Shown here: piece after piece, positions 36,415 to 60,659 of the stretch
How positions within the stretch are numbered: the stretch's first letter is position 1
How the letters are laid out: each line of letters starts with the position of its first letter
NCBI RefSeq assembly: GCF_000211855.2
Contig: NC_015638.1
Location: 930,001 to 994,000, forward strand
Length of the DNA: 64,000 nt
Direction of reading: 5' to 3'
From: Lacinutrix sp. 5H-3-7-4
GTDB lineage: Bacteria > Bacteroidota > Bacteroidia > Flavobacteriales > Flavobacteriaceae
Program-made: the position numbers and the translations under genes
Notes under the pieces: model-generated
The model's database searches: none
What the model saw: only the letters and a program-made list of their open reading frames with translations
What the model was told of the DNA's origin: nothing

Positions 36415-36450
36415 AAAAAATAGCCAATGAAAATATATTGGCTATTTTTT
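36415..36450. terminator. Bidirectional terminator between the unknown secreted gene and umuD
   Basis: AAAAAATAGCCAAT (36415-36428) and ATTGGCTATTTTTT (36437-36450) pair perfectly around an 8-base loop. The A and T tracts make it work in both directions for the two convergent genes. Confidence 0.9.
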
Positions 36451-36461
36451 AATTATTTAGT

Positions 36462-36905
36462 TTACACCTTTTTTATAACATTTGTTACTATTCCCCAAAT
36501 TAAAAAATTATTCTCTTCGGTGATATTAATAATAGGATAATCGGGGTTTTCTGGTTTTAACCATATTTCGTCTTTAGTTACACGTAAGCGCTTAACCGTA
36601 AATTCGCCATCTAAAAAACAAACAGCAATTTTATTGTTTTCTGGTTCTAAACTCCTATCAATTACAAGTAAATCATTATCATCTAATCCTGCACCAATCA
36701 TAGATTGGCCACTAACTCTTGCATAAAAAGTAGTTTCCTTATTTTTAACAAGCTCTTGATCTAAAGATAAACGCTCTTGACTAAAATCCTCTGTAGGTGA
36801 AGGAAAACCTGCTGAAATTCCAGTATCAAATAATTGTGCTGCTGCATCTTTAATTGGTTCTGGAACATACAATGTTAATCCCGTAGATTTATGTAAAATC
36901 TTCAT
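36462..36905 (-). CDS. umuD: UmuD-like self-cleaving S24 peptidase
   Basis: Protein of 147 residues. It has the cleavage site Ala32-Gly33 in ISAGFPSP, nucleophile Ser68 in GQSMIGAG and the general-base Lys105 in FTVKRLR, so all parts for RecA-stimulated self-cleavage are present. There is no helix-turn-helix domain, so it is UmuD and not LexA. UmuD2' normally works with UmuC as DNA polymerase V, but no umuC lies downstream here: the gene ends against a bidirectional terminator. The upstream sequence has a near-consensus box (TATCTTTA) but no recognisable SOS operator. Confidence 0.9.
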   Translation of the reverse strand: MKILHKSTGLTLYVPEPIKDAAAQLFDTGISAGFPSPTEDFSQERLSLDQELVKNKETTFYARVSGQSMIGAGLDDNDLLVIDRSLEPENNKIAVCFLDGEFTVKRLRVTKDEIWLKPENPDYPIINITEENNFLIWGIVTNVIKKV

Positions 36906-36982
36906 ATTTAAAACTAGATTTTGTAATTTGTTTAAAGATACGGAAGTTTTACATTTTTTATTTAAAAATAAATAGCTATTTG

Positions 36983-42213: not shown

Positions 42214-42241
42214 TTATATTTACAATTAATCCATTTTAATT

Positions 42242-43204: not shown

Positions 43205-43243
43205 AAATAAACTATTTTTGAAACCTGAAACAGATACGATTTT

Positions 43244-44338
43244 ATGAGCGAGATTAAACACAACTGGACAACAGAACAAATATTAGAGATCTATAACAAA
43301 CCATTAATGGAGTTACTTTACGAAGCTGCAACAGTGCATCGTTTACACCATGATCCAAATACCGTTCAAGTAAGTACTTTATTATCTATAAAAACAGGTG
43401 GTTGCCCAGAAGATTGTGGGTATTGCCCACAAGCAGCAAGATATCATACAGATATTGAAGGCAACGATTTAATGTCTGTTCAACAAGTAAAAGCACAAGC
43501 ATTACGTGCAAAATCATCTGGAAGTTCTCGAGTATGTATGGGAGCTGCATGGCGTAATGTAAAAGATGGCGAAGAGTTTGACCAAGTTTTAGAAATGGTA
43601 CGTACCATTAACAAACTAGATATGGAAGTTTGTTGCACACTTGGTATGATAACAGAAAACCAAGCACAACGTTTAGCAGAAGCTGGTTTATATGCTTATA
43701 ACCACAACTTAGATTCGTCTGAAGATTATTATAAAGAAGTAATTTCTACTCGTGGTTTTGAAGACCGTTTAGAAACTATCGATAACGTTCGTAAAACAAA
43801 TGTAACGGTTTGCTCTGGTGGTATTATTGGAATGGGAGAAGCCATAGAAGATAGAGCAGGAATGTTAGTAGCATTAGCCACGCTAAATCCACAACCAGAA
43901 TCTGTACCAATTAATGCACTTGTTGCTGTAGAAGGAACGCCTTTAGCAGAAGAAAAACCAGTTTCTATTTGGGACATGATTAGAATGGTAGCAACAACAA
44001 GAATTGTTATGCCAGAAACCCAAGTACGTTTAAGTGCTGGTAGAACAGAAATGAGTCGCGAAGGTCAAGCCATGTGTTTCTTTGCTGGAGCAAATTCTAT
44101 TTTTGCTGGAGACAAACTTTTAACAACTCCAAATCCAGATGTTAATGAAGACATGAAAATGTTTGAAATGTTAGGTTTAAACCCACAAAAACCGTTTATA
44201 AAAAAAATGCAGCCTGAAACTGTAGAAGCATCAGATTCTAAATTTGAAGCTTTAGGTGAAAAACCAAAATGGTCAAGACCAGAACATAAAATTGAGCGTA
44301 ATGAAGAGGCGAAACAAAAAGCAAAAGTTTCAAAATAG
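43244..44338 (+). CDS. bioB: Biotin synthase
   Basis: Radical SAM enzyme inserting sulfur into dethiobiotin, the last step of the pathway. Protein of 364 residues (E. coli 346), with a Lys-rich C-terminal extension usual for the phylum. The 4Fe-4S site is CPEDCGYC (Cys-x3-Cys-x2-Cys). The Fe2S2 ligands include the Cys residues in SSRVCMGAAWR and EVCCTLGMI, and the Arg of VRLSAGR. NHNLDSSEDYY and GMGE are conserved. Last gene of the cluster; no terminator hairpin is evident after it. Confidence 0.97.
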   Translation: MSEIKHNWTTEQILEIYNKPLMELLYEAATVHRLHHDPNTVQVSTLLSIKTGGCPEDCGYCPQAARYHTDIEGNDLMSVQQVKAQALRAKSSGSSRVCMGAAWRNVKDGEEFDQVLEMVRTINKLDMEVCCTLGMITENQAQRLAEAGLYAYNHNLDSSEDYYKEVISTRGFEDRLETIDNVRKTNVTVCSGGIIGMGEAIEDRAGMLVALATLNPQPESVPINALVAVEGTPLAEEKPVSIWDMIRMVATTRIVMPETQVRLSAGRTEMSREGQAMCFFAGANSIFAGDKLLTTPNPDVNEDMKMFEMLGLNPQKPFIKKMQPETVEASDSKFEALGEKPKWSRPEHKIERNEEAKQKAKVSK

Positions 44339-44411: not shown

Positions 44412-45269
44412 TTGAAACTAAATCTTCAACATATTCCTCGTGTAAAGACAATTACAAAAGAGGATTTCCTAAACCTCTACTATAAACCTCAAAAACCAGT
44501 AGTTATTGAGCGTTTTATTGAGGACTGGCCTGCGTTTTCTAAATGGAACTTGGAATACATTAAAGCAGTTGCAGGAGATAAAACTGTACCTTTATACGAC
44601 GATAGACCTGTAGATTATAAAGATGGATTTAATGAGCCTCACGCAACAATGAAAATGCGTGATTATATTGATTTGCTTAAGCGTGAACCTACAAAATTTA
44701 GAATATTTTTATGGAATGTTTTAAAAGAAGTTCCCAAACTTCAAAAAGACTATAAATTTCCAGATTTTGGATTGCGTTTAATGAAAGGGTTGCCAATGCT
44801 CTTTTTTGGTGGTACGAACTCTCACACCTTTATGCATTATGATATTGATCTAGCCAATATATTTCATTTTCACTTTGAAGGGAAAAAACAATGTATTCTA
44901 TTCGATCAAAAACAAAGCAAATATTTATATAAAATCCCGCATTCTTTAATAGTTAGAGAAGACATAGATTTCTCTAATCCAGATTTTAATAAATGGCCTG
45001 AACTAAAAAATGCAAAAGGCTGGGAATGTGAACTAAATCATGGAGAAATATTATATATGCCAGAAGGCTACTGGCATTACATGCGCTACATTACACCTGG
45101 TTTTTCAATGAGCTTGAGAGCAATAACTAGAAACCCTAAAAATTTAGCTAAAGCGTTATATAATATCACAATAATGCGTAGTTTTGACAACCTAATGAGA
45201 CGCATAAAAGGTCAAAAATGGATTGACTGGAAAAATAACAAAGCAATTACAAATACAAACAATAAATAA
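44412..45269 (+). CDS. JmjC-like cupin (cupin_8) protein
   Basis: Protein of 285 residues, probably a 2-oxoglutarate/Fe(II)-dependent hydroxylase. The double-stranded beta-helix carries the metal triad: His and Asp in FMHYDIDLA and the distal His in PEGYWHYMRYI; the Lys in FEGKKQCILFD may bind 2-oxoglutarate. N-terminal landmarks are PVVIERFIEDWPAFSKW. Relatives hydroxylate protein side chains, but the target here is unknown. The only usable start after the upstream in-frame TGA (44391) is TTG at 44412. The small outer-membrane protein starts two bases after its stop. Confidence 0.83.
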   Translation: MKLNLQHIPRVKTITKEDFLNLYYKPQKPVVIERFIEDWPAFSKWNLEYIKAVAGDKTVPLYDDRPVDYKDGFNEPHATMKMRDYIDLLKREPTKFRIFLWNVLKEVPKLQKDYKFPDFGLRLMKGLPMLFFGGTNSHTFMHYDIDLANIFHFHFEGKKQCILFDQKQSKYLYKIPHSLIVREDIDFSNPDFNKWPELKNAKGWECELNHGEILYMPEGYWHYMRYITPGFSMSLRAITRNPKNLAKALYNITIMRSFDNLMRRIKGQKWIDWKNNKAITNTNNK

Positions 45270-45270
45270 A

Positions 45271-45759
45271 ATGAAAAAAATAATACTTATAATTACTTTA
45301 TTCTCGACTTTGGCTAGTTTTGGACAAGCTTTTAGTGGTAAAGGAGACCAAAAACTATCTGTAGGTGCAAATTTACAAGACAATGCAACAGGAATTAGTT
45401 TAAGTTATGACTATGGGTTAGGCGAAAACATATCTGTAGGTATCGTTACTGCTTATGCTTTAAATACAGATGTAGACTCTGCAAGTTTTGGAGATCGTTA
45501 TGATATTAAAGCAAGATTTAACGCAAACCTTGGTAACGTTTTAAATATTAGTGACAACTTTGATATTTATCCAGGATTAAGTTTAGGACTTAAAAATTTT
45601 GGTGGTCATTTAGGAGCACGTTACTTTTTTACAACAGGATTTGGTGTTTTTGCAGAAGTAGGAACAACATTAGCAAAATATGAAAGTGATACACTTAGAC
45701 TAGATCAAAAAATTCATAACCAATTTGTTGGAAATATTGGAGCTGTTTTCAATTTATAA
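45271..45759 (+). CDS. Small outer-membrane beta-barrel protein
   Basis: Protein of 162 residues when started at the ATG at 45271, which gives a clean signal peptide (MKKIILIITLFSTLASFGQA). The mature part is a run of amphipathic beta strands (LSVGANLQD, GISLSYDYGLG, FDIYPGLSLGLKNFGG, FFTTGFGVFAEVG) ending in Phe-Asn-Leu, typical of an eight-stranded OmpW/OmpX-like barrel. An in-frame ATG at 45223 lies inside the cupin gene and only adds a polar extension. It starts two bases after the cupin stop. Function unknown. Confidence 0.83.
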   Translation: MKKIILIITLFSTLASFGQAFSGKGDQKLSVGANLQDNATGISLSYDYGLGENISVGIVTAYALNTDVDSASFGDRYDIKARFNANLGNVLNISDNFDIYPGLSLGLKNFGGHLGARYFFTTGFGVFAEVGTTLAKYESDTLRLDQKIHNQFVGNIGAVFNL

Positions 45760-45777
45760 TTCATAAAATCACACTCT

Positions 45778-45818
45778 AAAAACGCCCTTAAATTTTTAAA
45801 AATTTAAGGGCGTTTTTT
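45778..45818. terminator. Strong bidirectional terminator
   Basis: Long palindrome with arms 45781-45797 and 45798-45815, flanked by A and T tracts. It serves the barrel gene (plus) and recX (minus), which converge here. Confidence 0.9.
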
Positions 45819-45821
45819 ATA

Positions 45822-46295
45822 CTATTTAATTAAAGCATTAGCTTTATCATAAACCAAATGTGGCTCCCAACCACGATACAACAAATAGTTTATAAACTTC
45901 TTCTTTTTCTTTAAAGTATTGGTCTCTCGAATGGAAAGTGCTGTTTTTTCGGCTAAATCATTGAAAAACTCGACATACTCATCGTCCGAAATTTCTGCAA
46001 GCGCAGCATTTATATTAAATTTGGAGATGTCTTTTTTCTTAAGTTCAAGAGTTAATCGACGTCGCCCCCATTTTTTTATATTGAACTTACCTCTAACATA
46101 TGTTTTGGCAAAACGTTCTTCATTAAGATAGTTGTGCTTTAATAAATGAACAATGATTATATCTGAAGCTTCAGGAATCATATTCATGCTTTTTAGTTTT
46201 TGTCTCACTTCGTGATGACACCTTTCTTGATATGCACAGTAATGCTCCAATTTTTTGGTTGCTTCATCCACTGTAAACGTTTTGTTTTTATACAT
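45822..46295 (-). CDS. recX: Regulatory protein RecX
   Basis: Binds RecA filaments and limits recombination. Protein of 157 residues with three helical repeats: EATKKLEHYCAYQERCHHEVRQKL, LLKHNYLNEERFAKTYVRGK-type and the KWGRRRLTLELKKKDI core (YVRGKFNIKKWGRRRL is the family hallmark). No recA nearby. Its promoter box ends 5 bases before the ATG, so the message may be leaderless. Divergent from the first large T9SS gene, with 44 bases between start codons. Confidence 0.93.
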   Translation of the reverse strand: MYKNKTFTVDEATKKLEHYCAYQERCHHEVRQKLKSMNMIPEASDIIIVHLLKHNYLNEERFAKTYVRGKFNIKKWGRRRLTLELKKKDISKFNINAALAEISDDEYVEFFNDLAEKTALSIRETNTLKKKKKFINYLLYRGWEPHLVYDKANALIK

Positions 46296-46299
46296 ACAT

Positions 46300-46328
46300 C
46301 AAAAATAAGCTATTAAACAAATAACCAA
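46300..46328 (-). promoter_or_regulatory. recX promoter (TTG-N18-TATTTTTG)
   Basis: Minus-strand TATTTTTG (46300-46307) with TTG at 46326-46328. The box ends 5 bases before the first base of the recX ATG. Confidence 0.5.
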
Positions 46329-46339
46329 AATGCCCTAAT

Positions 46340-49300
46340 ATGAAAAATTTTTACTCATTATTAACTCTTTTTTTATTCTTCTTAAATTTAGGGTTTGCAC
46401 AAACTATAATTTATGACGAAGATTTTACTGGCCAATTAAACAAAGGAGCAACATATAATACAACTACAAATTTAACCGAAGTAGATTTAAGTGGCGTAAA
46501 CTGGACAATAGATATTTCTTCTGTCACTTTTAATACGGGAGATAGGTTTAAAGTTGTAAACGGAAATAGATTTCTTGAAGCTCGAGATTTAGACGGACAA
46601 GCAATATGGTATTCTCCATCAATAAATATTAGTTCTTTTACAGATATTCAGTTTTCTTTAGACGCTACAGAAAGCTCTCCTGCTAACGATAACCTTGAAG
46701 ATGCAGATACCTTTATTACAGAATTTCGTATAGATGGTGGCGCATGGACACAAGCAGGAAATAATGGTTTTATACAAAATGATTATACTAACACCGTAGT
46801 ATCTCACAACACATTATTAAATGGTAACACTTTAGAGTTAAGAGTTTTAATTACAAATGATGGAAATGGTGAGCGCATGCGTATTGACAATGTTCTAGTA
46901 CAAGGTATAGCGCCAATAACTCCAACAATAACTATTAATCCAAATACTAACACTATTCCTGCATTAAGTGTTGTTGAAAACAATGTGTCATTAACCGAGG
47001 AAACATTCTCTGTTCAAGGTTCATCTTTAACAAATGATATAATTATTACTGCTCCTGCAGAATTTGTTATTTCAGAAAATGCAAATGGCCCTTATTTAAA
47101 TACTATTACCTTAACACAAACTGGCGGAACAATAAATCCAACAACTATATATACAAAACTAGCCTTTGGTTTAACTCCAAATACTTATAGTAATACAATT
47201 ACTGTTTCTAGTACTGGAGCTACAAACGAATTAGTTTCAGGTTCTGGAACTGTAATAGCACATACACCTGCCGCAAACTGTGGAGAATTATTAATTTCTG
47301 AATATCATGAAGCTGCAGCTGGAACAGCAAATGAACAATATATAGAATTATACAATCCTACAAATACTGCTATAGATTTATCAAACTATCAAATAGCAAG
47401 ATTTATAAATGGAAGAGTTAATTATAATCCAGCAATTAGAACAATTCCTGCTGCACAAGGTTTTATTGCTCCATATTCAACATTTTTAATAGCCAGAAAC
47501 AACTCTGAATTATGTAACAACGGTATTGCTGATTACTGTACAGGAAGCGGTGCATTAAATTTTGATGGAAACGATGTTATCGCGCTTCAAAATAGCAATG
47601 GTGTAAATATAGATGTTGTAGGCGTATTAAATGTAAACAACAACTTTGGCCAAAACGTAAATCTAGTAAGAAACTCTAATGTTCAAACACCAACACCAAC
47701 ATATAATAATGCAGACTGGTCTTCAAATCCATCAAACAGTATTACTCTTTTAGGCTCTCATGTAAGTGATTGTGAATGTTCAACAACAGTTACTTGGGAT
47801 GGTACATCATGGACTCCATTTGCACCAGACAGCAGTACAGCAGTAATTTTAACTGGAGATTATAATGCCAGTATGTTAACACCAGGTTTTACAGCTTGTA
47901 GTTTATCTATTAATGCAGGTGTTACTTTAACAGTTGAGAATGATTATACCGTAGAAGTAAAAAATAACGTTACAAATAGCGGAACTATAATTGTTCAAAC
48001 TAATGGATCATTTGTTCAAAACAATGATTCTGGAGTATTTCAAAACACAGGAGGAACTTCAAGCGTTTCAAAATTAAGCGCGTTTGCTAGTGATTGGTTA
48101 GAATATACATATTGGAGTTCACCTGTTTCGGGAGAAACTATTGGCAATGCGCTTTCTCCTTCAAATCCTAACAGAAGATTTAGATTTAGATCAGAAAATT
48201 TTGAAGATAATTATGCTGAAACAAACAACGCAAACCCTGTAATTAATATGCAGGACGATGAAGATGATAATGGAAATGTATGGTTATTAATGAGTGCTGC
48301 AGATGCTATGACTCCTGGTGTTGGTTATGCTTCAACATTATCTGCAACAGCTTTTTCAACTCCACCTGGTGGTGGCACTGCTCCGCCAGTAAGAGTTAAC
48401 CATGAGTTTATAGGTGCATTTAATAATGGCATTATACCAGTTACTATTTATAGAAACGATGCCATTAATACAATTTCAAGTGTAAGTGGTGACAAAAACT
48501 GGAACTTAATTGGTAATCCTTATGCAAGTGCTGTTTCTATACCAGACTTCTTTGCTGAAAACATGTATAGCTCGACAAATACTTCTGGCACAATTGATGG
48601 ATTAATATATTATTGGTCTCACGAAAATCCTCCATTAAACACGAATAACGGTAACTCTCAAAATAATTTTAGCCAGTCTGATTATGTTATGGTTAACGAG
48701 TTAGGAGGAACTACTGCTGGAGACCATAATGGTGACGGCACTATAGATGCTAATGATATTCCTGACGAATTTATACCTTCTGGACAAGGCTTCTTTGTAA
48801 CTTATAACGATATGGCTCCAGGAGCTCCATCATCTATAACCTCATTAGATACAGGTGCTGTAATTATGGAAAATCAAGTTACGTTTAGAAACTCTATGCG
48901 TGTAAGTGGTAATAATGATTTATTTTATAGAAACGCTAACCAGCCAATTGAAACTAATAAGCTATGGCTTAATTTAACTACAGATACTGGTGTATTTAGC
49001 CAATTATTAGTTGGCTATAAACAAGGCGCTACAAATGGTTTAGATGGCGCAAGATTTGATGCTATAAGAAACAGATCTTTTGGAGATCAAACATTTTTTT
49101 ATTCTATAATTGAAAATAACAACCTTAATTATGCTATTCAAGGTAAAGCGCCAGAAAGCTTAACTATAGATGAAGTTATCCCACTTGGTATCTACACATC
49201 TATTACTAATCCTGCAACTTTTACTATTTCTATATCTCAATTTGAAGGTGACTTTTTAAGTAATAATACTATTTACCTTAAAGATAATTATGCAAGTTCA

Positions 49301-49660
49301 ATACATGATTTAAATGCTTCAGATTATAGTTTTACCACAACAAATGGTGAGTTTAGAGATCGTTTTGAAATTGTATTTAATGCAAGTAGTCTTGCTGTTG
49401 AAGCGTTTTCTACTAACGAAACTAATTTAACTATTATAGAATTACAAGATGAAAATGTTCAATTCTCTTTAAATGGAAATAATAATTTAAGAATAGAAGC
49501 GGTTAGAATTATTGATATTTTAGGTCGTGAACTTTATAATTTCCGCGGAAGCGAAAAAACAGAAATTTACAATTTATCTAAACTAAGTACCAGTACTTAT
49601 ATTGCTCAAGTAACACTATCTAATGGAAAAGTAATTGCTAAAAAAGCAATTAAAAAATAA
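46340..49660 (+). CDS. T9SS-exported lamin-tail-domain protein (paralogue 1)
   Basis: Secreted protein of 1106 residues. Signal peptide 1-20; an N-terminal jelly-roll-like region (about 25-195; YDEDFTG start); a beta-sandwich (about 200-310); and a lamin-tail domain (about 313-475; GELLISEYHEAA, QYIELYNPTNTAIDLSNYQI). The remaining 626 residues form a module shared with the next gene: a GTIIVQ beta segment, an acidic cluster (DDEDDNGN), an EF-hand-like loop DHNGDGTIDAND near 794 and a C-terminal Por sorting domain (DILGRELYNF, LSTSTYIAQVTL, KAIKK). It should be exported by the type IX system and attached to or released from the surface. Possible role: adhesion or calcium-dependent binding. 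Confidence 0.9.
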   Translation: MKNFYSLLTLFLFFLNLGFAQTIIYDEDFTGQLNKGATYNTTTNLTEVDLSGVNWTIDISSVTFNTGDRFKVVNGNRFLEARDLDGQAIWYSPSINISSFTDIQFSLDATESSPANDNLEDADTFITEFRIDGGAWTQAGNNGFIQNDYTNTVVSHNTLLNGNTLELRVLITNDGNGERMRIDNVLVQGIAPITPTITINPNTNTIPALSVVENNVSLTEETFSVQGSSLTNDIIITAPAEFVISENANGPYLNTITLTQTGGTINPTTIYTKLAFGLTPNTYSNTITVSSTGATNELVSGSGTVIAHTPAANCGELLISEYHEAAAGTANEQYIELYNPTNTAIDLSNYQIARFINGRVNYNPAIRTIPAAQGFIAPYSTFLIARNNSELCNNGIADYCTGSGALNFDGNDVIALQNSNGVNIDVVGVLNVNNNFGQNVNLVRNSNVQTPTPTYNNADWSSNPSNSITLLGSHVSDCECSTTVTWDGTSWTPFAPDSSTAVILTGDYNASMLTPGFTACSLSINAGVTLTVENDYTVEVKNNVTNSGTIIVQTNGSFVQNNDSGVFQNTGGTSSVSKLSAFASDWLEYTYWSSPVSGETIGNALSPSNPNRRFRFRSENFEDNYAETNNANPVINMQDDEDDNGNVWLLMSAADAMTPGVGYASTLSATAFSTPPGGGTAPPVRVNHEFIGAFNNGIIPVTIYRNDAINTISSVSGDKNWNLIGNPYASAVSIPDFFAENMYSSTNTSGTIDGLIYYWSHENPPLNTNNGNSQNNFSQSDYVMVNELGGTTAGDHNGDGTIDANDIPDEFIPSGQGFFVTYNDMAPGAPSSITSLDTGAVIMENQVTFRNSMRVSGNNDLFYRNANQPIETNKLWLNLTTDTGVFSQLLVGYKQGATNGLDGARFDAIRNRSFGDQTFFYSIIENNNLNYAIQGKAPESLTIDEVIPLGIYTSITNPATFTISISQFEGDFLSNNTIYLKDNYASSIHDLNASDYSFTTTNGEFRDRFEIVFNASSLAVEAFSTNETNLTIIELQDENVQFSLNGNNNLRIEAVRIIDILGRELYNFRGSEKTEIYNLSKLSTSTYIAQVTLSNGKVIAKKAIKK
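47780..49660 (+). repeat. Copy 1 of the shared C-terminal module (about 1.85 kb)
   Basis: Aligns with 53310-55158. Tracts of 40 or more identical bases occur, for example at 48651-48691 and 48963-49013. The reading frame is kept throughout. Divergence is higher in the first third. Confidence 0.9.
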
Positions 49661-49680
49661 ACCCAGTCTTAAAAAAAGAA

Positions 49681-49725
49681 AAAACGTGATATTGCTCTTA
49701 ATAAAGTACTATCACGTTTTTTTTT
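49681..49725 (+). terminator. Terminator between the two T9SS genes
   Basis: AAAACGTGATA (49681-49691) pairs with TATCACGTTTT (49710-49720), 18-base loop, then a T run. The two paralogues are therefore separately transcribed. Confidence 0.8.
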
Positions 49726-49842
49726 AGAAATATAAAAATAACGTTTTCATAACAAATATGTATCTTTAAAACTATATGCAATCCTTTAATTTGTAAAGTA
49801 CTAACTATACTTTTTTTTACCAAAACCCTTAAAATTTTAGTC

Positions 49843-52800
49843 ATGAAAAACGCTAAACTACTCCTAATTTTAATTATTTTTTCACTTTCATATATTGGTT
49901 ATGGACAGGTTTCTGAAAATTTTGATGGTTGGACCGATAATTCATATGGAGGCATCTCTACATATTCAGGTCCATCTGGAAATTGGGAAACTAATAATTC
50001 AATCTGTGCCCCTAATAATGCAAGAACAGGAAATGCAATACGTTTTAATGATAATAGTGGAGAAAATGAATATTTACTGTATAGTGGTTTAGATGGTAAT
50101 GGAAAAGATAATGGTATTGGAGACATTTCTTTTTGGTACAGACATTGGAGTGGTAATGCTAGCAATGTTCAATTTCAAGTACAATACAGTAACGATGGTA
50201 CAAATTGGAATAATGCTGGAGGAATAGTTTCTGCAACCTCAACAACATATAATCAATTTACAACTACGGTAAATATAACTGGTGACGATTATTTTATTAG
50301 AGTAATTTCTATTGATGATGCAGAAAGGTTAATGATAGATGATTTTTTAATTACAGATTATACCGTTGCACCATCAGATTTAGTAATTTCAGGAACTGAA
50401 GATCATGGTTCAAGCTGCATAGGTGTTGCGGCAACAACCATACAATACACAATAACCAATAATGATACTTCTGTAGCTTTAGGTGTAGCTGTTAACTCAA
50501 ATAATTCAGAATATGTTATTAGTGGTTTATCTTCTACAAATATAATTCCCTCTGGTACTGCTACTTTTAATGTTACCTATACACCTACAACAGTTGGACC
50601 AAGTACAGCAACAATTACAGTAAGTAGTTCAACTACAACAAATGCTACTATAGATTTAACTGGATCTGGTGTTTCTGTTCCTACAATAAACACACAGCCA
50701 AATAATCAATTAGTTACAGAGCCCGAAACAGCTTCATTCTCTGTTACGGCTACTAATGCTAATTCATATCAATGGCAAGTTTCAACAAATGGTGGTTCTA
50801 CTTTTACAAATGTAACTACTGGAACTGGTGGAAATACAGCTAATTACACGACAGAAAACACCATTTCAACAATGGATAATTACCAATACCAGTGTGTTGT
50901 TACTAATTCTTGTGGGTCTATTACTTCTGGTACTGCTATTTTAGATGTTTTGCCAATTTCAGAAGTTATTTTAAATTCAAATAATCCTGCTACGGCTGCA
51001 AGTACAATTGTACAAGCCGAAGACAATCATGTTATATATCAGTTTGATTTAGCTGTAACAGCTGCAACATCTAATGCAGAATTAACAAGTGTAGACTTTA
51101 CAACCAGCGGAAGTTATGCTGCTTCAAATATTACTAATTTTAAATTATGGTACGATACTACAAGTACCTTTAATGCTTCGACATCAATATTTTTAGAAAA
51201 TTTAACTACAGGATTAGGCACAGGAACCCATACCTTTTCTGGTCTAAACCAAACAATTAATACAGGATCTACTGGTTATTTTTTTATAACAACAGACATA
51301 CCATGTACTGCGACTGCTGGAAATACAATTCAAGTAGATGCTTTAACAATAGCAAATCTTACATTTATTAGTGCAAATAAATCTGGAACCGCGTACAGTA
51401 GCGAACTACATACTTTTATAAGTGCAACACCAAACAATGTTACTGGCCATTTTTTAAGTGATTGTGAGAATGGAAACACAACAGTGAATTGGACAGATCC
51501 TGCAGGATGTAGTGATAATATATTAATATTTGCCACAGACACATCATTCTCTACACTTACACCAACTGGCAACGGAAGCGCATATACAGCAAATACTATT
51601 TTTGGCAATGGTACTGCGTTCGATGGTGGTTTTTGTATTTATAAAGGTACAGGGAATACAGAAACAATAACCGGTCTAACAAACGGTACTAATTATACTT
51701 ATAAAATTTTTACTAGAAACGACTTATTGTGGAGTACAGGTGTGATTATAGATTGTACTCCCAACATTACCTATTGTGATGCTGGACCAACCTCTACTAC
51801 AGATTCAGAAATTGAAAATGTTATTTTGGTTGGCGAAAATAATTCTATTTCAAATGACACCTCTGGAATATGTACTGGTGCTACTGGTGGAGAGGTTAGT
51901 GATTTTACAGCAATGAGTGCAGATTTAGCCGCAGGAAGTTCATATTCTCTTTCTGTAGAGTTTGGAGATTGTAATGATGGTAGTCAATATAGTGGTGCTG
52001 GAGGCGTTTGGATAGATTGGAATAATGATGGTGATTTTAATGATACAAACGAAACTATTGGTACTTTAGATGTCGCTGTTAATACTGGAAATATAATTGA
52101 AACTTTTTCTATTAATGTTCCAAGTGGTCAAACCATTGGAAATTACAGAATGCGTATTGTTCAAGAAGAAGGCGGAGATTTAAACTCAATTTCACCATGT
52201 GGTACATTTAGTTGGGGAGCTGTAGAAGATTACACTATCGAAGTTATTAGTGCATGTATTGCAACACATAGTATAACTAGTATTTATCCATCTTCTGGGC
52301 CTGTTAATACAAATGTAACTGTAAATGGTTCAAATTTTTCAAATTTAACTACCGCTACTTTTAATGGGCTAACTGCTACTATTGTTTCTCAAACATCTAC
52401 AACATTAGTTATAACAATTCCTCCAGGAGCAACCACTGGAAATTTAGAAATTTTTGATGATCTTTCATGTTCTACTGCAACGCCATTTAATATTATTGAG
52501 AGTTCTGGAAATTGCAATAGTGCTACTAATTTAATGATTACAGAAGTATTTGATAATAATGGAGGTTCATTAGGTTATATTGAAATTTATAACGGTACAA
52601 ATACGACTATTGACTTAACTGAATATAGAATCTCTAGATATGGAGATTTAACTAATACAGTACCTACTTACTCTTATAACTTTCCAACTACAGGAGTTGG
52701 AAGTAGTATTGCATCAGGTGATGTTTTAGTTGGTAAAATTAGTTCGGATGCTGGTGGAGCAGAAGATTTTAATTTTGGCGGCAATGGTTTTAATGATAAT

Positions 52801-55158
52801 GATAGGTTAGAACTTATACATATTGCAACCTCAACGGTTATTGATGATTTTCATGATTCGATAGTTCAGTCTGTTGGGTATGTATATAGAAGAAATGTAA
52901 ATATTTCTAATCCAAATCCAAATTATGACTCTGCTGAATGGACAACGGCTACCTCTGGTTCTACTTCAGATTTAGGAAACTTCTCAACAACATCTACAGG
53001 TGTAACACCATCAATTACATCGCAGCCAAATGTAACCTCTACGTGTGATAATGCAACCTTTGCCATTACTGCTGCTGCTGGAAACTCTGGAACATTAACT
53101 TACCAATGGCTGTATAATGATGGTACAACTACTTCATGGTTTAATGTTACTGATGCTGCATTTTCTTCGGGAGTTGTTACAGGAGAAACAACAAACACTT
53201 TATCAATTTCAGGTTTCGATTTAACTAACTATCAATTTTATTGTTTAGTTACAGAAGATGGTGCTTGTGCAATTGCCAGTAATGCTGCAAGGTCTAACCC
53301 TATGAGCACAACATGGAATGGAACCTGGAGTAATGGCGTACCAAATATAGCTACCCAAGCAATAATAAATGCCGATTATGACACTGCTACTAATGGTAGT
53401 TTTAGTGCCTGCTCATTAATTATAAATAATTCGGGATCTGGTTTTACTGTTACAATAAGTAATAATACATACATAGAAGTAGAAAACAATGTTGTTAATA
53501 ATGGTGAAATTATAGTACAACATAGTGGTTCTTTTGTACAAAACAATGATCTTTCTACCTTTACAAATACAGCTACAGGATTATCTAGAGTAACAAAATT
53601 AAGCGCATTTGCTAACGATTGGTTAGAGTATACATATTGGAGTTCTCCTGTTGTTAATGAAACTATAGGTAATGCATTATCACCTGCAGATCCAAACCGT
53701 AGATTTAGATTTAGAGCAGAAAACTTTGAAGATAATTACGCCGAAACGAACAATACAAATCCTGTAATAAATATGCAGGATGACGAAGATGACAACGGTA
53801 ACGATTGGGTATTGGTTTCTGGAACAGATGTTATGAACCCAGGAACTGGTTACGCAGCAACATTATCTACTACATCTTATAATCCTCCAATGGCTGGAGC
53901 TCCTTTAAGGGTTGCACACACCTTTAGTGGTGAATTTAATAATGGAATTATTCCTGTTACTATATATAAAAATGACAATATAGTAAATGACAAAAACTGG
54001 AACTTAGTAGGTAATCCTTATGCAAGTGCTATTTCAATTCCAGACTTTTTTGCTGAAAACGTATATAGCACAACCAATACTACTGGAACTATTGATGGCG
54101 TTATTTATTATTGGTCACACCAAAACCCACCTTTAAGCACAAACAACGGTAACTCTCAAAATAATTTTAGCCAGTCTGATTATGTTATGATAAATGAAAT
54201 GGGTGGCACTATTGCAGGAGATCATAATGGTGATGGTACTATTGATGCTAATGACACTCCAGATGAGTTTATACCGTCTGGGCAAGGTTTTTATATTACT
54301 TATAACCATGATGCTCCTGGAACAGCTTCAAGTATTAGCTCTCTAGACACTGGTGCTAGCATAGTTGAAAATACCATAGTTTTTAATAACGCTATGCGAG
54401 TAACTGGTAATAATAGTTTATTTTACAAAAACGCTAGTCAACCTATTGAAACTAATAAATTATGGCTTAATTTAACTACAGATACTGGTGTATTTAGCCA
54501 ATTATTAGTTGGTTATAAACAAGGCGCAACAAATGGTTTAGATCCTGCTAGTTTTGATGCCATAAGAAATAGATCTACAGGAAACCAAACCTTCTTTTAT
54601 TCAATTATAGAAAACAGTAACCTTAATTATGCCATACAAGGTAAAGCGCCAGAGAGTTTAACTATAGATGAAGTTATCCCACTAGGTATTTATACATCTA
54701 TTACTAATTCTGCAACCTTTACTATTTCTATATCTCATTTTGAAGGTGATTTTTTAAATAATAATACTATTTATTTGAAAGATAATTATGAAGGCGTAAT
54801 TCATGATTTAAGTGCTTCAAATTATAATTTTACCACAACAAATGGTGAATTTAGAGATCGTTTTGAAGTTGTATTTAATGCAAATAGTCTTGCTGTTGAA
54901 GCGTTCTCTACTAACGAAACTAATTTAACTATTGTAGAATTACAAGATGATAACGTTCAATTCTCTTTAAGCGGAAATAGTAATTTAAAAATAGAAGCGG
55001 TTAGAATTATTGATGTTTTAGGTCGCGAGCTTTATAATTTCCGCGGAAGCGAAAACACAGAGGTTTACAATTTATCTAAACTAAGTACCAGTACTTATAT
55101 TGCCCAAATAACACTTTCTAATGGAAAGATAATTGCTAAAAAAGCAATTAAAAAATAA
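49843..55158 (+). CDS. T9SS-exported multidomain protein (paralogue 2)
   Basis: Secreted protein of 1771 residues, one of the largest in the window. Order: signal peptide (1-21); jelly-roll-like region (22-170); Hydin/DUF1573-like beta domain (about 174-275; YTITNNDTS, GTATFNVTYTPTT); Ig-like domain (about 279-371; YQWQVSTNGG, YQYQCVVTNSCG); beta region (372-650); GEVED domain (about 652-802; GGVWIDWNNDGDFND, GNYRMRIVQEEGG, GAVEDYTIEV); IPT/TIG domain (809-886; PSSGPVNTNVTVNGSNF); lamin-tail domain (889-1039); second Ig-like domain (1052-1152). The last about 615 residues are the module shared with the previous gene, including DHNGDGTIDAND and the Por sorting domain. Likely a surface adhesin or binding scaffold. 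Confidence 0.9.
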   Translation: MKNAKLLLILIIFSLSYIGYGQVSENFDGWTDNSYGGISTYSGPSGNWETNNSICAPNNARTGNAIRFNDNSGENEYLLYSGLDGNGKDNGIGDISFWYRHWSGNASNVQFQVQYSNDGTNWNNAGGIVSATSTTYNQFTTTVNITGDDYFIRVISIDDAERLMIDDFLITDYTVAPSDLVISGTEDHGSSCIGVAATTIQYTITNNDTSVALGVAVNSNNSEYVISGLSSTNIIPSGTATFNVTYTPTTVGPSTATITVSSSTTTNATIDLTGSGVSVPTINTQPNNQLVTEPETASFSVTATNANSYQWQVSTNGGSTFTNVTTGTGGNTANYTTENTISTMDNYQYQCVVTNSCGSITSGTAILDVLPISEVILNSNNPATAASTIVQAEDNHVIYQFDLAVTAATSNAELTSVDFTTSGSYAASNITNFKLWYDTTSTFNASTSIFLENLTTGLGTGTHTFSGLNQTINTGSTGYFFITTDIPCTATAGNTIQVDALTIANLTFISANKSGTAYSSELHTFISATPNNVTGHFLSDCENGNTTVNWTDPAGCSDNILIFATDTSFSTLTPTGNGSAYTANTIFGNGTAFDGGFCIYKGTGNTETITGLTNGTNYTYKIFTRNDLLWSTGVIIDCTPNITYCDAGPTSTTDSEIENVILVGENNSISNDTSGICTGATGGEVSDFTAMSADLAAGSSYSLSVEFGDCNDGSQYSGAGGVWIDWNNDGDFNDTNETIGTLDVAVNTGNIIETFSINVPSGQTIGNYRMRIVQEEGGDLNSISPCGTFSWGAVEDYTIEVISACIATHSITSIYPSSGPVNTNVTVNGSNFSNLTTATFNGLTATIVSQTSTTLVITIPPGATTGNLEIFDDLSCSTATPFNIIESSGNCNSATNLMITEVFDNNGGSLGYIEIYNGTNTTIDLTEYRISRYGDLTNTVPTYSYNFPTTGVGSSIASGDVLVGKISSDAGGAEDFNFGGNGFNDNDRLELIHIATSTVIDDFHDSIVQSVGYVYRRNVNISNPNPNYDSAEWTTATSGSTSDLGNFSTTSTGVTPSITSQPNVTSTCDNATFAITAAAGNSGTLTYQWLYNDGTTTSWFNVTDAAFSSGVVTGETTNTLSISGFDLTNYQFYCLVTEDGACAIASNAARSNPMSTTWNGTWSNGVPNIATQAIINADYDTATNGSFSACSLIINNSGSGFTVTISNNTYIEVENNVVNNGEIIVQHSGSFVQNNDLSTFTNTATGLSRVTKLSAFANDWLEYTYWSSPVVNETIGNALSPADPNRRFRFRAENFEDNYAETNNTNPVINMQDDEDDNGNDWVLVSGTDVMNPGTGYAATLSTTSYNPPMAGAPLRVAHTFSGEFNNGIIPVTIYKNDNIVNDKNWNLVGNPYASAISIPDFFAENVYSTTNTTGTIDGVIYYWSHQNPPLSTNNGNSQNNFSQSDYVMINEMGGTIAGDHNGDGTIDANDTPDEFIPSGQGFYITYNHDAPGTASSISSLDTGASIVENTIVFNNAMRVTGNNSLFYKNASQPIETNKLWLNLTTDTGVFSQLLVGYKQGATNGLDPASFDAIRNRSTGNQTFFYSIIENSNLNYAIQGKAPESLTIDEVIPLGIYTSITNSATFTISISHFEGDFLNNNTIYLKDNYEGVIHDLSASNYNFTTTNGEFRDRFEVVFNANSLAVEAFSTNETNLTIVELQDDNVQFSLSGNSNLKIEAVRIIDVLGRELYNFRGSENTEVYNLSKLSTSTYIAQITLSNGKIIAKKAIKK
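53310..55158 (+). repeat. Copy 2 of the shared C-terminal module
   Basis: Counterpart of 47780-49660, about 5.5 kb downstream. The two copies encode the same C-terminal module with few substitutions in the last 400 residues, and identical codons in long runs. Confidence 0.9.
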
Positions 55159-55163: not shown

Positions 55164-57593
55164 TTATAGTACAAATTTAATTGATGTGATTAAATTTCTG
55201 CCTGGCGCTGCAATACCAGATGAATATGTTTTGTAGCGTTGGTCTGTTATATTTTCTAATCCAATAGTTAGATTTGCAAAACTATTTAATTCGTATTGAG
55301 CAGTTAAATTTAGTGTGTACCAAGATGGTGAATAAGGGTTTCCGTTATTGTCTAAAGCATAAATATAGTCTTTACTAACCTCAGATGGCGCTAAATCGTA
55401 GTACGATAATTCTCCATTATAGTTTACAGAAGCATCTGCTTTAAACTTATTTTTTGTCCAGGTTAATCGTGTGTTTCCAAAGTTTGGAGCAACGTGTCTT
55501 ACTGGGTATTCTACTTCATCTGTTTCGTCTGTTCCGCCAACTACATTGTATTGAGAGCTTAGTGCTAAGTTTTTAGAAACGTTTAGTTTTGCGCCAATTT
55601 CAAAACCGTAGATATAAGATTTTGATGCGTTTTGTATGGATTGTACATTACTTAATTCGCCATTATAAACAATTTCTGTTTCACCATTTAAATCGCCATC
55701 TCTTCGTACTAAGGCATTATCTAAATAAGTGTAATATGTTGCCATATCCAATATTAAGACATCATCAAAATTTAGTAACAATCCTAATTCACCACCATAA
55801 GCATATTCTGGTTTTAAATTATTATTAGGCACCACTACAGATCCTGGTTCTGAGTCAAATACTTTACCAATATCATCTATATTTGGAGCTCTAAAAGCAG
55901 TTGAAAAATTTAATTTCCATTGTAATGTTTTATTTGGAATCCAACTCATTCCTGCTGTTCCTGTTAAGGCTTCAGAGTTGTTTTTTGCTTCGTCAAAAGG
56001 TAAATTTAAATAAACGTTATTAGCCTCGAAATTTGCTTTAGATAGTACTTTATTAAAACGTAATCCACTTTGAAATACAAATTTTGAGTTTGGCTTATAT
56101 TTTAAGCTTAAATATGCTGCTAAAGATTGCCAAGTTGCATTATCTGGATATCTGGTTACAATATTTGATGTTTCGGTTGTTTCTATATTTTCTTCTTTTG
56201 CCTTAGAGTTTACTTTATTATAAATATATTCTAAGCCGTAAGATATTTTTGTTTTAGGGTTCAAGGTTTTTTCTAAATCTAAATTAAAAGAAACTGCATT
56301 TACTGCTTCTTCTTTTATACTTTTAAAAACACTTTGGTAATCTCTATCAATACGACTTTCCTGAAAATTTTGATACGCAACTGTAGCTTGTATTTTATCG
56401 TACAAATTAGAACTACTACTTAGTTTAGTAATGTTTAAATTACTCATAAACCAGCGTTGTGGTCCATAATACCATTCGGCAGATCTTAACTCTTCTCCTC
56501 TGTATCTAATTAACCTATCGTATCTAGGAGTGTTTGATGTAGATGTATAAAATAAACCTAAGTTAAAACTCAAATTATCTTTTGGTTCGTAACGCACTTT
56601 TTGCATTACATTTATTTGATTGTAACCTGAGTTTTTTTGCAGCTTTGGTTCGCTGTTACTTACTATTTGATCTTGATTATTTGTAGTAACAACAAACTCT
56701 GGCCTTAAATAATCGTTTGGTCCATGACTTCCCATTTTTAAATCATTAAAATCTGAAAAGCTAGCATTAGTTATAAATGCCCATTTTTTAAAGCCATAAT
56801 TTACACCTAAATGAGCTGTTTTTTCTTGATTAGCTGTTGCATAACGTAATGTTGCAGTAGTTTTATAGTAAGTAGAATCTGTATATGATAGTTGTGGCTT
56901 TTGTGTATAAAAACTCATAACGCCACCTATGGCATCGCTACCATATATTACAGAGCCTGCACCTAAAGATACTTCTGTGTTTTGTATTGTAAATGGGTCT
57001 ATAGAAATTACATTTTGAAGGTTTCCGCCTCTAAATATGGCATTGTTCATTCTAACACCATCTACTGTAATTAATAATCTATTTGTTGAGAAACCTCTAA
57101 TAATTGGGCTACCGCCACCTAACTGGCTTTTTTGTATAAATACTTGGCCTGTTTTTTCTAATAAATCTGCACTGGTTTGTGGGTTTGTGAATGCAATAGA
57201 TTTTGCATTAAAATTTACAATCTTATTTGGAACATCTCTTTTATCTTGTTTAAATTTTGAAGCAGAGATAACTATTTCTTCTAAACCTTGCGTTAGTGGT
57301 TCAAGATAGATTACATCTCCTTTAATTCTGCTTTTTTCTACTGATAAAACATCGAAAGCAATATGTTTAAAAAACAAAATATCGTCTGGATTAAAAATGT
57401 CCAGATTAGCTTTACCATTAAATTTTGTTATAACACTTCGAGATTGGTCTTGATTGTATATAGCTGCACCAACTATTGGTTCTTGCGTTTTTTTATTAGC
57501 AATTAATATTTCTTGAGCCTGTAGGCTTAGTACTAAACAAAATGAGAATATAATGTAGAGTATTGGTTTTTTGTATTTAGTTGAAAACGTCAT
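55164..57593 (-). CDS. TonB-dependent receptor
   Basis: Outer-membrane receptor of 809 residues. The ATG at 57593 is chosen because it gives a normal basic start and signal peptide (TFSTKYKKPILYIIFSFCLV...QAQ); an ATG at 57644 lies inside recO and adds a polar tail. A short carboxypeptidase-regulatory-like domain (VGAAIYNQDQS, FNGKANLDIF) is followed by the plug (about 115-235; SPIIRGFSTNRLLITVDGVRMNN, GAGSVIYGSDAIGGVMSFY) and a barrel ending SIKFVL. The plug resembles heme/vitamin B12-type receptors (BtuB/HmuR class). Ligand unknown. It overlaps recO by 17 bases and converges on the second T9SS gene. Confidence 0.92.
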   Translation of the reverse strand: MTFSTKYKKPILYIIFSFCLVLSLQAQEILIANKKTQEPIVGAAIYNQDQSRSVITKFNGKANLDIFNPDDILFFKHIAFDVLSVEKSRIKGDVIYLEPLTQGLEEIVISASKFKQDKRDVPNKIVNFNAKSIAFTNPQTSADLLEKTGQVFIQKSQLGGGSPIIRGFSTNRLLITVDGVRMNNAIFRGGNLQNVISIDPFTIQNTEVSLGAGSVIYGSDAIGGVMSFYTQKPQLSYTDSTYYKTTATLRYATANQEKTAHLGVNYGFKKWAFITNASFSDFNDLKMGSHGPNDYLRPEFVVTTNNQDQIVSNSEPKLQKNSGYNQINVMQKVRYEPKDNLSFNLGLFYTSTSNTPRYDRLIRYRGEELRSAEWYYGPQRWFMSNLNITKLSSSSNLYDKIQATVAYQNFQESRIDRDYQSVFKSIKEEAVNAVSFNLDLEKTLNPKTKISYGLEYIYNKVNSKAKEENIETTETSNIVTRYPDNATWQSLAAYLSLKYKPNSKFVFQSGLRFNKVLSKANFEANNVYLNLPFDEAKNNSEALTGTAGMSWIPNKTLQWKLNFSTAFRAPNIDDIGKVFDSEPGSVVVPNNNLKPEYAYGGELGLLLNFDDVLILDMATYYTYLDNALVRRDGDLNGETEIVYNGELSNVQSIQNASKSYIYGFEIGAKLNVSKNLALSSQYNVVGGTDETDEVEYPVRHVAPNFGNTRLTWTKNKFKADASVNYNGELSYYDLAPSEVSKDYIYALDNNGNPYSPSWYTLNLTAQYELNSFANLTIGLENITDQRYKTYSSGIAAPGRNLITSIKFVL

Positions 57594-58296
57594 TAAAAAC
57601 TTGTAGTGATTTTGGTTTTTTAAAGCTGCCCAAATGTAGTTCAAAATACAACAAAATAATGGCTAAAAACGATTGTCTTTGTTTTGAATTCATTTTGACT
57701 TCTTCTAACGCATCAAATGTTGTGCCCAAAAGTGTTTTTAAGAGTGTTAAATTTTCGCCCGAAATACAATATTTACTACTACTCATATCTTGAAATTCTC
57801 CTGCCTGAAGATTAAAATATGGCAAGTTTATATCTGTAATATCTGGGTAAAACCCTAAGTGTTTTGTTAGGTTTAATAGAAACAATAAATGAAAGTTTGA
57901 ATAACGATCATTAGTATCTAACCATTGCAAGGTGGTTTCTAAATAATTATATAATGTAGCATTTTGTTCTTCCTCTTGTAAAGTAGTACTTAACACTTCG
58001 GCTAAAAATAAAACAATAGCGCTTTTTAATATATTGGTGTGTAAATTGGAGTAAAGGTGATTTATTTTAACTTCTTTTACATACTGCAAGCCTCTTGCCT
58101 GCTTATAATCTGTTACAAGATGTAATTGTGTTAACAATTGATAGTAAGCAACTTTAGATCCTTTTTTTTTAGATTTTAAAACACCACGTAATAAATAGCT
58201 AACAATACCAAATTCTTGCGTGTAGCATTTTACAATAAGGTCATTGTCTTTGTATTTTAATTTAGAAAGTACAATAGCATTTGTAGTCGCAATCAT
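57577..58296 (-). CDS. recO: DNA repair protein RecO
   Basis: Loads RecA on SSB-coated single-stranded DNA with RecR. Protein of 239 residues. The N-terminal OB fold is clear (NAIVLSKLKYKDNDLIVKCYTQEFGIVSYLLRGV), followed by a helical domain (HLLFLLNLTKHLGFYPD). The zinc Cys cluster of other RecO proteins is absent, with only isolated Cys residues, as is common in this phylum. It shares one base with the porZ stop (TAATG) and overlaps the TonB receptor start by 17 bases, so porZ-recO-receptor is one transcript. Confidence 0.93.
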   Translation of the reverse strand: MIATTNAIVLSKLKYKDNDLIVKCYTQEFGIVSYLLRGVLKSKKKGSKVAYYQLLTQLHLVTDYKQARGLQYVKEVKINHLYSNLHTNILKSAIVLFLAEVLSTTLQEEEQNATLYNYLETTLQWLDTNDRYSNFHLLFLLNLTKHLGFYPDITDINLPYFNLQAGEFQDMSSSKYCISGENLTLLKTLLGTTFDALEEVKMNSKQRQSFLAIILLYFELHLGSFKKPKSLQVFNDVFN

Positions 58297-60659
58297 TACC
58301 TTACTATCATTACTTTTAATACTTTAGTTTCTATAGAATCTAAATCTGTTAACATTATTAAATACACTCCTGAAGCAACAGTAACATTTCCTAAATTTTT
58401 ACCATTCCACAGTGCAGTGCCACCATCTATTTCTAAATTAAAACCTTTAAATTTTCCATTGGTTCTAGATTCTGCTTCTGTAACTAGGTTTCCTTCTATA
58501 TCTGTAATTTTAATATTAACATTATCTGTAAGACCTTTTATTTTTATTTTATCGTTATTGATATTAAAGCTTGGTCTAACAGGATTAGGAAAAACGTAAG
58601 CATCTTCAAGTGTTTCTTCTGGCTTAGAACTTTCTGAGCCAAAAGCAACAAGTCCTTTTTCTGTTGCAAAATATACAAGGCCGTTTTCATCATCTATTGC
58701 GATATCTAAAATATCGTTTGATGGTAATGGTGAGTTATCTTTAGTAAAATGAAATATGGTTTCTTGACCATCTGATGATAAATAATACACACCTGTATCT
58801 AAAGTACCAATCCATTTATTATTTGAACCATCAACCTCAATATCTGTTATATATTGCTGAAAAAGTAATTCTCTAGGCGTACCATCGTCTAAAACTATAA
58901 TATCTGAAACTTGAAATGTTGGGTTACTAAAAAACTCACTAGTATTATAAATCACTCTTAAGCCACGATCTGTACCAATCCATATAGTGTTTTGTAAATC
59001 TGTTTCTACAGTCCAGGTTTTTTCTGAAGGCATATTAAACTCAACATCTTCAATAAATTTTTTATCGCCGTTGGTATCTACTCCAATTATTCCATAATTT
59101 AAACTAGAGATAAATATTTTACCATCATCGGTAAATGTAATATCTGAAAACCCTAAATTACTAGTTCTTGGGTTTATAATATCTTGCATATTTATACCTG
59201 TCCATTGACCATTTTCTAATTTATTTAAACTATTATCAACACGTCCATTCATTACCCATAATGCACCATTACTATCAAAATTATTAGCTAAAACTAAATG
59301 TATGGCACCAGCAAAAGGAACTAATGAACTATTATCTTGATTAAATATAGAAATGCTTTCGGTATTAATATCTAAAAGTCCTGAGAAATAAGAGCCAACA
59401 TAAACTTGGTTTGTATTAAATGGGTTAATTGATAAATATGATAAATACCATGGATTTGATACTGCACTTGCTATAGAGTCGTAGCTAATATTATTCCATT
59501 CTTCATTTTTTAAATGACTTAAACCAGAGCGCCTTAAACCTCCATTAAAATTATATGTAACAGAGTGACCGCCATGTGTTCCCCAAACCTCTCCTGCTTG
59601 TGTTTTTATTTTGAAAAACTTATTTAATAAAGGACTTTCTGGATGTATTTCTTGATATACTGAAGTATCACTTACATTGGTTTGTAATATCCCATAGCCT
59701 TCCTGTCCTATTGCAGTTGTATAAATACCTTGAGTACCAATATATATATTATTATTTTGGCTTAATGATACCGCTGTAAATAACATACTAACGTCCTCTA
59801 TAGTTTGAGCGGTAGCAACAACATTTAAAGACGTCTCTGTATTGTATACGTATGCTTCTTTTTCTGTAGCGATTAAAAGGTTACCTTGCTCTTCTCTTGT
59901 ATCTACAATTAAATCACTATATACTACCAACTCTGAAATAGCATCGTTTATAACGCTGTATAACCTTCGTGTTGATCGTGAGGCAAATAACTTATCGTTA
60001 ACACTCGTAATGCCAACCCAGTTTGCAGATACTATTCTTGTCCATTGGTTAAAGTCTATAAGGTTTGGGTTAGAGACTAAAGCTTTGCTAATACCAACAT
60101 TTGTAGCAGCATAAATTTGATCTTCAAAAATTGTAGTTTGGTTTATTTTTATTTGAGAACCGCCATCACCAATATAATAGGTGTCACCAAATTCAAGGTT
60201 ATTTATATCGTAAAGTGAAATTCCAAAATCTGTAGAAATATATGCGAAATCATTGTAAATCATAAAATGATTTATACGCTTGTTATTTGGTGGTATTGTG
60301 GGTTTATCTATAATATCTACAACGGTTAAAAAATCGTTTTCAGATTCTTTATACACCTGCATTAAACCATTTTCAAAACCAATTAACAACAAACCTTTAT
60401 TTTGAACATATTCTATGCTAGAAATAGTTTCTCCAGATAAACCGTTTATAGTTGATAATTTTTCTATTTCAAGTGTTTGCTTATCATAAGTAAATATTGC
60501 ATTTTCTGCAGCACCATAAACTTTAGTTTCTCCTTGAGAAATATCTTTAATATCTAAGTATGAAAAATGGCCCATCCATGAGTCTGTAAAATCTTGTGCA
60601 AACACATGATTAGAATTAAAAAGCAAAATAAAAGCAACAATTAGTTTAATACTACGCAT
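58296..60659 (-). CDS. porZ: Type IX secretion system protein PorZ
   Basis: Protein of 787 residues. Signal peptide (1-21), then two seven-bladed-propeller-like halves. The N-terminal PorZ domain is recognisable (DSWMGHFSYLDIKDISQGETKVYGAAENAIF, YDKQTLEIEKLSTINGLSGETISSI), with repeated blades further on (TIWIGTDRGLRVIYN, NKWIGTLDTGVYYLS, GLVYFATEKGLVAF). A C-terminal Por-like domain follows (VFPNPVRPSFNI, SGVYLIMLTD). In Porphyromonas PorZ is part of the surface attachment complex that passes A-LPS to the sortase PorU. It is the only T9SS machine gene in the window and lies near two cargo genes. A -7 box (TATTTTTG) lies about 35 bases upstream. Confidence 0.88.
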   Translation of the reverse strand: MRSIKLIVAFILLFNSNHVFAQDFTDSWMGHFSYLDIKDISQGETKVYGAAENAIFTYDKQTLEIEKLSTINGLSGETISSIEYVQNKGLLLIGFENGLMQVYKESENDFLTVVDIIDKPTIPPNNKRINHFMIYNDFAYISTDFGISLYDINNLEFGDTYYIGDGGSQIKINQTTIFEDQIYAATNVGISKALVSNPNLIDFNQWTRIVSANWVGITSVNDKLFASRSTRRLYSVINDAISELVVYSDLIVDTREEQGNLLIATEKEAYVYNTETSLNVVATAQTIEDVSMLFTAVSLSQNNNIYIGTQGIYTTAIGQEGYGILQTNVSDTSVYQEIHPESPLLNKFFKIKTQAGEVWGTHGGHSVTYNFNGGLRRSGLSHLKNEEWNNISYDSIASAVSNPWYLSYLSINPFNTNQVYVGSYFSGLLDINTESISIFNQDNSSLVPFAGAIHLVLANNFDSNGALWVMNGRVDNSLNKLENGQWTGINMQDIINPRTSNLGFSDITFTDDGKIFISSLNYGIIGVDTNGDKKFIEDVEFNMPSEKTWTVETDLQNTIWIGTDRGLRVIYNTSEFFSNPTFQVSDIIVLDDGTPRELLFQQYITDIEVDGSNNKWIGTLDTGVYYLSSDGQETIFHFTKDNSPLPSNDILDIAIDDENGLVYFATEKGLVAFGSESSKPEETLEDAYVFPNPVRPSFNINNDKIKIKGLTDNVNIKITDIEGNLVTEAESRTNGKFKGFNLEIDGGTALWNGKNLGNVTVASGVYLIMLTDLDSIETKVLKVMIVR

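Follow-up and report, generated by a model that had tools for sequence, protein, structure and literature searches.

Two neighbouring genes of the marine bacterium Lacinutrix sp. 5H-3-7-4, here termed A and B, very probably encode T9SS surface proteins of the RemA/RemZ kind, located in the Lacinutrix counterpart of the Flavobacterium johnsoniae remZ-remA locus, and derive from an old duplication that was followed by later gene conversion at the 3′ ends. Most likely, this pair represents the remZ-remA array as it occurs in Lacinutrix. The window analysed is a 64,000 nucleotide long stretch of this genome (NC_015638.1, positions 930,001-994,000); the genome itself (3.30 Mb) is designated G000, and the other genomes are numbered accordingly. 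As predicted originally, A and B are two tandem open reading frames; both are intact and located on the same strand with 182 bases between them. Their features and those of the conserved flanks are listed in the table.

Features of the A/B locus; positions are those of the window.
Feature	Position	Strand	Description	Evidence
Gene A	46340..49660	+	1106 aa, T9SS cargo-like; signal peptide, head, module	ORF; signal peptide by eye; Pfam LTD; sub-threshold Por_Secre_tail
Head of A	46340..47779	+	480 aa; lamin-tail domain 47270-47623 (residues 311-428)	Pfam; module boundary by BLAST
Module of A	47780..49657	+	626 aa; homologous to RemZ 574-681 and 745-1112	
Stretch of A nearly 100% identical in G006	46687..47883	+	most of the head and module start	
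3′ part of module A	48941..49657	+	about where the head-A gene of G006 begins to resemble G000 B rather than A	maximum chi-square
DHNGDGTIDAND loop in A	48722..48757	+		
Inverted repeat and T run 3′ of A	49682..49725	+	intrinsic-terminator-like	direct reading, unscored
Gene B	49843..55158	+	1771 aa, T9SS cargo-like	ORF
Head of B	49843..53298	+	1152 aa; Ig-like (sub-threshold), GEVED 52006-52239, lamin-tail 52519-52845 (residues 893-1001)	Pfam
Module of B	53299..55155	+	78% identical to module A	
DHNGDGTIDAND loop in B	54220..54255	+		
recX	45822..46295	-	conserved flank	
TonB-dependent receptor	55164..57644	-	conserved flank; haem-type models below their cut-offs	
recO and porZ	57577..60659	-	conserved flank	

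A profile of the shared module was compared with the PDB sequences and matched RemZ (574-681 and 745-1112) with an E value of 5.4e-61 and RemA with 2.5e-40. This relationship to the C-terminal parts of RemZ and RemA supports the proposal that the module is a secreted stalk. The Por_Secre_tail model, which has a cut-off of 27 bits, scored 24.6 bits for A and 27.1 bits for B in a six-frame search, and 18.8 and 20.1 bits with the whole proteins. The T9SS type C model NF033708 gave 29.4 and 30.7 bits and stayed below its cut-off of 40. Passages of PMC10994853 describe a near-invariant lysine close to the C terminus of T9SS type A cargo, which is Lys1110 in RemZ. By count in the alignment, K1102 of A and K1767 of B align with this residue, as is characteristic of type A cargo. 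An AlphaFold model of gene A, made with a three-row alignment, had a mean pLDDT of 28.8.

The shared C-terminal module of about 620 residues was confirmed: 615 codons can be aligned, with 78% amino acid and 79% nucleotide identity. A search of the 3.30 Mb genome at E 0.001 revealed no third copy of the module. The description of the two modules as nearly identical holds for the DNA of the last approximately 130 codons (91-93% nucleotide identity; 88% protein identity in module residues 531-626) but not for the first 100 aligned codons, where the proteins are only 51% identical. Runs of DNA identity of 40-50 bases had been reported as well; the longest exact run between A and B is 52 nt (run test, p=0.009, uncorrected, a value that would fail multiple-test correction over the 27 tandem pairs described below).

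The DHNGDGTIDAND loop had been named as part of the module and is indeed present in both A and B. Since only 6 of 71 modules have such a motif at the corresponding position, we rejected it as a core feature.

Instead of even, saturated synonymous divergence, we found silent identity to be uneven along the module. Per 100 codons from 5′ to 3′ it was 0.55, 0.56, 0.68, 0.65, 0.74 and 0.92 (heterogeneity p=0.0005 by permutation, the floor for 2000 shuffles). The cross-species control comprised 11 copies, which came from seven further genomes of the genus; G006 was treated apart, and G008 (two copies) and G005 were excluded. In module residues 531-626, silent identity between A and B was 0.90, and between A or B and the genus copies 0.50-0.68. 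The silent likeness of the tail is therefore specific to the A-B pair and a property of the pair, not of the sequence, which argues against local constraint. As expected for a gene-converted repeat pair, silent divergence is unevenly distributed and smaller between the copies of one genome than between those of different species. In its 5′ part the module is no more alike at silent sites than the background, which suggests an old duplication and a later homogenisation of the 3′ part. Of the two origins considered in the original prediction, gene conversion thus gains support from the way silent divergence varies along the module, from the cross-species control and from the mosaic gene described next, while recent duplication does not apply to the module as a whole.

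The closest relative, G006, is a MAG of Lacinutrix sp. MedPE-SW. Its contig C15 (13,094 bases) is identical to NZ_MPCX01000022.1 over the 11,737 bases compared. The G006 gene has the head of A, a divergent middle and the tail of B. Exact runs with gene A of G000 extend over 46687-46894, 46896-47708 and 47712-47883, and further on the identity is 78-92%. The maximum chi-square method placed a switch toward G000 B at residue 867/868, with 214 A-like and 68 B-like sites to the left and 8 and 52 to the right (p≤0.0002, the lowest value attainable with 5000 permutations). The module at approximately residues 600-870 is close to neither A nor B. The G006 contig stops within the module, at the position corresponding to 49516, and shares exactly 99 bases with the end of the adjoining contig, an overlap that points to an unresolved repeat in this assembly. 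With a MAG contig ending in the module, a mis-join is a possible source of the mosaic.

Around the genes, identity between the window and G006 also varied. DNA at 41192-44191 is 97-100% identical and at 46698-47697 more than 99%, and the stretch 44443-46697, which includes the cupin gene, DUF6646, recX and the start of A, is 78-88% identical. Smaller diverged patches are located at 36423-36922 and 40173-40422. On the other (porZ) side, the G006 contig and the window share 99.0% identity along 8.8 kb.

It is rather unlikely, in our estimation, that the pattern arose by recombination with DNA from other strains and not (or not only) by exchange between A and B, a reading that overlaps with the one preferred here. 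It would fit the observation that G000 and G006 differ by approximately 1% on the porZ side, are only 78-92% identical at 44443-46697 and 47948-49447, and are approximately 100% identical in the head between these stretches; the middle of the G006 module, which resembles neither A nor B well, points in the same direction. DNA from other strains alone leaves unexplained that the tails of A and B are sisters in the trees and alike at silent sites.

To place the A-B pair among others, 27 tandem pairs from 21 genomes were analysed; ORFs shorter than 400 aa were excluded (the C6 end of G006, G004, one piece each of G257 and G243). The run test gave p<0.01 (uncorrected) for six of the 27 pairs (G000, one G010 pair, G220, G048, one G084 pair and G156). 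Silent heterogeneity reached the same uncorrected level in six pairs as well (G000, G001, G002, G048, one G084 pair and G156). Both patchiness tests were passed by four pairs and neither by 19, which suggests that homogenisation is occasional. Exact runs in other pairs were as long as 709 nt (G084), 385 nt (G048) and 168 nt (G156). In trees of the N, middle, C and tail segments, the tandem copies were sisters in 7, 7, 8 and 13 of the 27 pairs, respectively, with uneven support; one G149 pair lost its sisterhood toward the tail.

These pairs also bear on two further explanations. If a whole gene had been duplicated recently and one of the copies had then received another head, the result would be a common module with different heads, and long tracts of 99-100% identity are indeed present in one G084 pair and in the G048 pair. 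We nevertheless regard this as very improbable, since the first module segments of the G048 and G084 pairs are only 68% and 55% identical and the 5′ part of the G000 module has the silent divergence of the background. An old tandem duplication alone, with the 3′ likeness caused by strong constraint on the sorting domain or by an overlapping DNA or RNA signal, is hardly credible: the tail is the most alike protein segment in several tandem pairs (e.g., G001), but the silent likeness of the A and B tails is not shared with the 11 control copies, and silent heterogeneity is not significant (p>0.1) in 21 of the 27 pairs.

The heads of A and B had been called unrelated. Beyond the lamin-tail region our comparison agrees with this, in that no similarity between them was found there at E 1e-5. 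A lamin-tail domain, however, precedes the module in both proteins, and in this region the heads are 28% identical over 162 aa. No lectin domain was detected in A or B with Pfam at E 0.01. We also scanned 51 of 54 heads, those with at least 60 aa. At E 0.001 they matched 16 Pfam families, none of which is an enzyme by description. The lamin-tail family LTD was found in 23 of the 51 heads, others match Ig-like, TIG, fn3, GEVED and similar families, and some heads are without a match. The NCBIfam exonuclease model ExeM matches 11 of the 51 heads; in A the match covers model positions 13-176 of 884 with 84 bits (cut-off 1300) and the lamin-tail part only. Given these matches, some module proteins might still carry an enzyme-linked head. 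A search with the B head (E 1e-10) found matches in seven of 12 genus genomes; G006 had no match in a record that may be incomplete.

To compare heads with modules across species, we used eight genes that carry a head of the A type (28 pairs). Head identity among G000, G006, G001, G003, G007 and G011 was 0.67-0.79 regardless of flank distance, with 0.97 for G000-G006, and the heads of G012 and G002 were 0.47-0.55 identical to all others. Between G001 and G011, the five flanking proteins are 90-99%, the module segments 89-95% and the heads 77% identical. The corresponding values for flanks, module and heads are 87-98%, 59-76% and 72% between G001 and G003, and 63-86%, 44-55% and 73% between G000 and G001. 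Judged from these identities, head and module histories would be decoupled between species, which fits an exchange of head alleles. The suggested swapping of heads on a shared stalk is consistent with these differing histories, to which fast head divergence could contribute.

The module is present in all 13 genomes of the genus at E 0.001, with G004, G005 and G009 having it in part or at another place, and at E 1e-60 it was found in 92 of 299 genomes of the family. Four candidates were scored in most genomes of the family survey, so that copy numbers are minima. We inspected 34 loci from 33 genomes, one genome per species, which were picked by module matches and are mostly multi-copy. In 31 of the 34 loci (30 of the 33 genomes) a module gene is located no more than two listed genes from recX, DUF6646, the TonB receptor or recO; the genomes without this arrangement are G005, G004 and G009. 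Module genes flank recX on both sides in G002, G010, G027, G041 and G159. The module set comprised 59 ORFs above 120 bits, with short pieces in G004 and G257 excluded. Further copies exist outside the sample, e.g., in G050, G168, G237 and G302, and third copies in G096 and G182. In G009 (genome 89% complete), a module gene between recX and the TonB receptor is reduced to its start and its end (L079:10112-10506), which looks like a deletion relic.

According to the explanation we prefer, A and B would each consist of a Sec signal peptide, a variable binding-type head and the shared C-terminal module, a stalk with a sorting domain that is read by the T9SS translocon and PorV. After the old gene duplication, homologous recombination between the direct-repeat modules would have copied 3′ tracts (gene conversion), and crossing over between modules could add or remove copies and join heads to other tails. 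The module would thereby be kept matched to the secretion machinery while the heads diversify or swap. Recombination probably also involved DNA from other strains. Export via PorV, the adhesin role, RecA as agent, crossing over and selection for head diversity are parts of this scheme that we infer.

More tentatively, the remA locus as a whole might be a family-wide cassette for adhesin diversification, with one T9SS stalk and sorting module that conversion keeps uniform and that acts as a platform for recombination, and with heads that are swapped, deleted or imported; we consider this possible, if somewhat doubtful. If true, surface-binding specificity, and perhaps phage sensitivity, would turn over within populations. 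None of the titles and abstract starts of the matches listed describes recombination at the RemA locus across Flavobacteriaceae. The original RemA paper or one on diverse CTDs may already mention the relatives of RemA beside it.

Among known systems, the closest are the T9SS cargo proteins RemA and RemZ of F. johnsoniae (PDB 8gl6 and 8gl8), of which RemA is a mobile gliding lectin. RemZ is Fjoh_0803. The 6.10 Mb genome G443 contains exact RemZ and RemA strings, and we take it to be F. johnsoniae. Its gene order is bioB, cupin gene, four module genes (the first encoding RemZ), recX and RemA. RemA is Fjoh_0808 according to a passage in PMC5445135, and part of PMC12618676 describes it as a type A adhesin with a lectin domain. 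The third module gene of G443, F3, shares 95.6% DNA identity with RemA over 1,410 bp. In four of five 100-codon bins of their modules, protein identity is 96-100% and silent identity 0.87-0.95; in the first bin the values are 57% and 0.71. The head domains found with Pfam are DUF7507 in F3 and a SUEL lectin in RemA, and none of lectin type was found in RemZ. The lectin head thus defines RemA and not the whole RemA/RemZ group. F3 and RemA (L117:12059-15124 and L118:495-4805) face in opposite directions and are separated by F4 and recX; recombination between these modules would therefore invert the segment.

The A-B pair resembles this system in the homology of the C-terminal modules, in the presence of several genes with differing heads on related modules and in the neighbourhood of bioB, cupin gene and recX. 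The likeness is confined to one flank, and the TonB receptor-recO-porZ flank was not found beside remA in G443. A and B differ in having LTD, Ig-like and GEVED heads instead of the SUEL lectin of RemA, module identity is only approximately 29-32%, and RemZ has no DHNGDG-type loop at the place of DHNGDGTIDAND. Altogether, an unexplained gene pair can now be placed at the counterpart of a well-studied gliding adhesin locus, the genomes sampled differ in how many genes and which heads this locus contains, and in the presumed F. johnsoniae genome the cluster includes a sibling of RemA whose module is almost the same but whose head is different. This variation and the RemA sibling make adhesin diversification by recombination testable with existing genetics.

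Repeated T9SS adhesins are also known from type B adhesin-PorP units. Sections of PMC5808330 describe a repeated inverted 10 kb region in F. psychrophilum, which is similar to the A-B locus as a repeated T9SS adhesin associated with genome rearrangement. In contrast to A and B, such a unit has its own PorP/SprF-family gene, and none was found among the scanned A/B neighbours. The Lacinutrix genome itself contains a dispersed pair of large genes approximately 342 kb apart with type B sorting tails and different middles (L120:1501-7179 and L121:1861-7155). They share a 3,499 bp block that is 99.7% identical (L123:1655-5152 and L124:1632-5129) and comprises the C terminus, a PorP/SprF-family gene and an OmpA-like gene related to PorE. 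Another region of this genome (L122:14854-16078, and 3808-5407 with 9411-11031) has four Por-tail matches, an array of repeats of approximately 84 bp each and two stretches that are 76% identical in DNA.

A further comparison is offered by RgpA, Kgp and HagA of P. gingivalis, as they are portrayed in parts of PMC5266723. These are likewise T9SS surface proteins with different heads and shared modular C-termini. Compared by description, they differ from A and B in that RgpA and Kgp have protease heads and in that cleaved-adhesin domains make up the part they share. For RgpA, Kgp and HagA, domain rearrangement, allelic exchange and gene conversion have been proposed in passages of the same source (PMC5266723).
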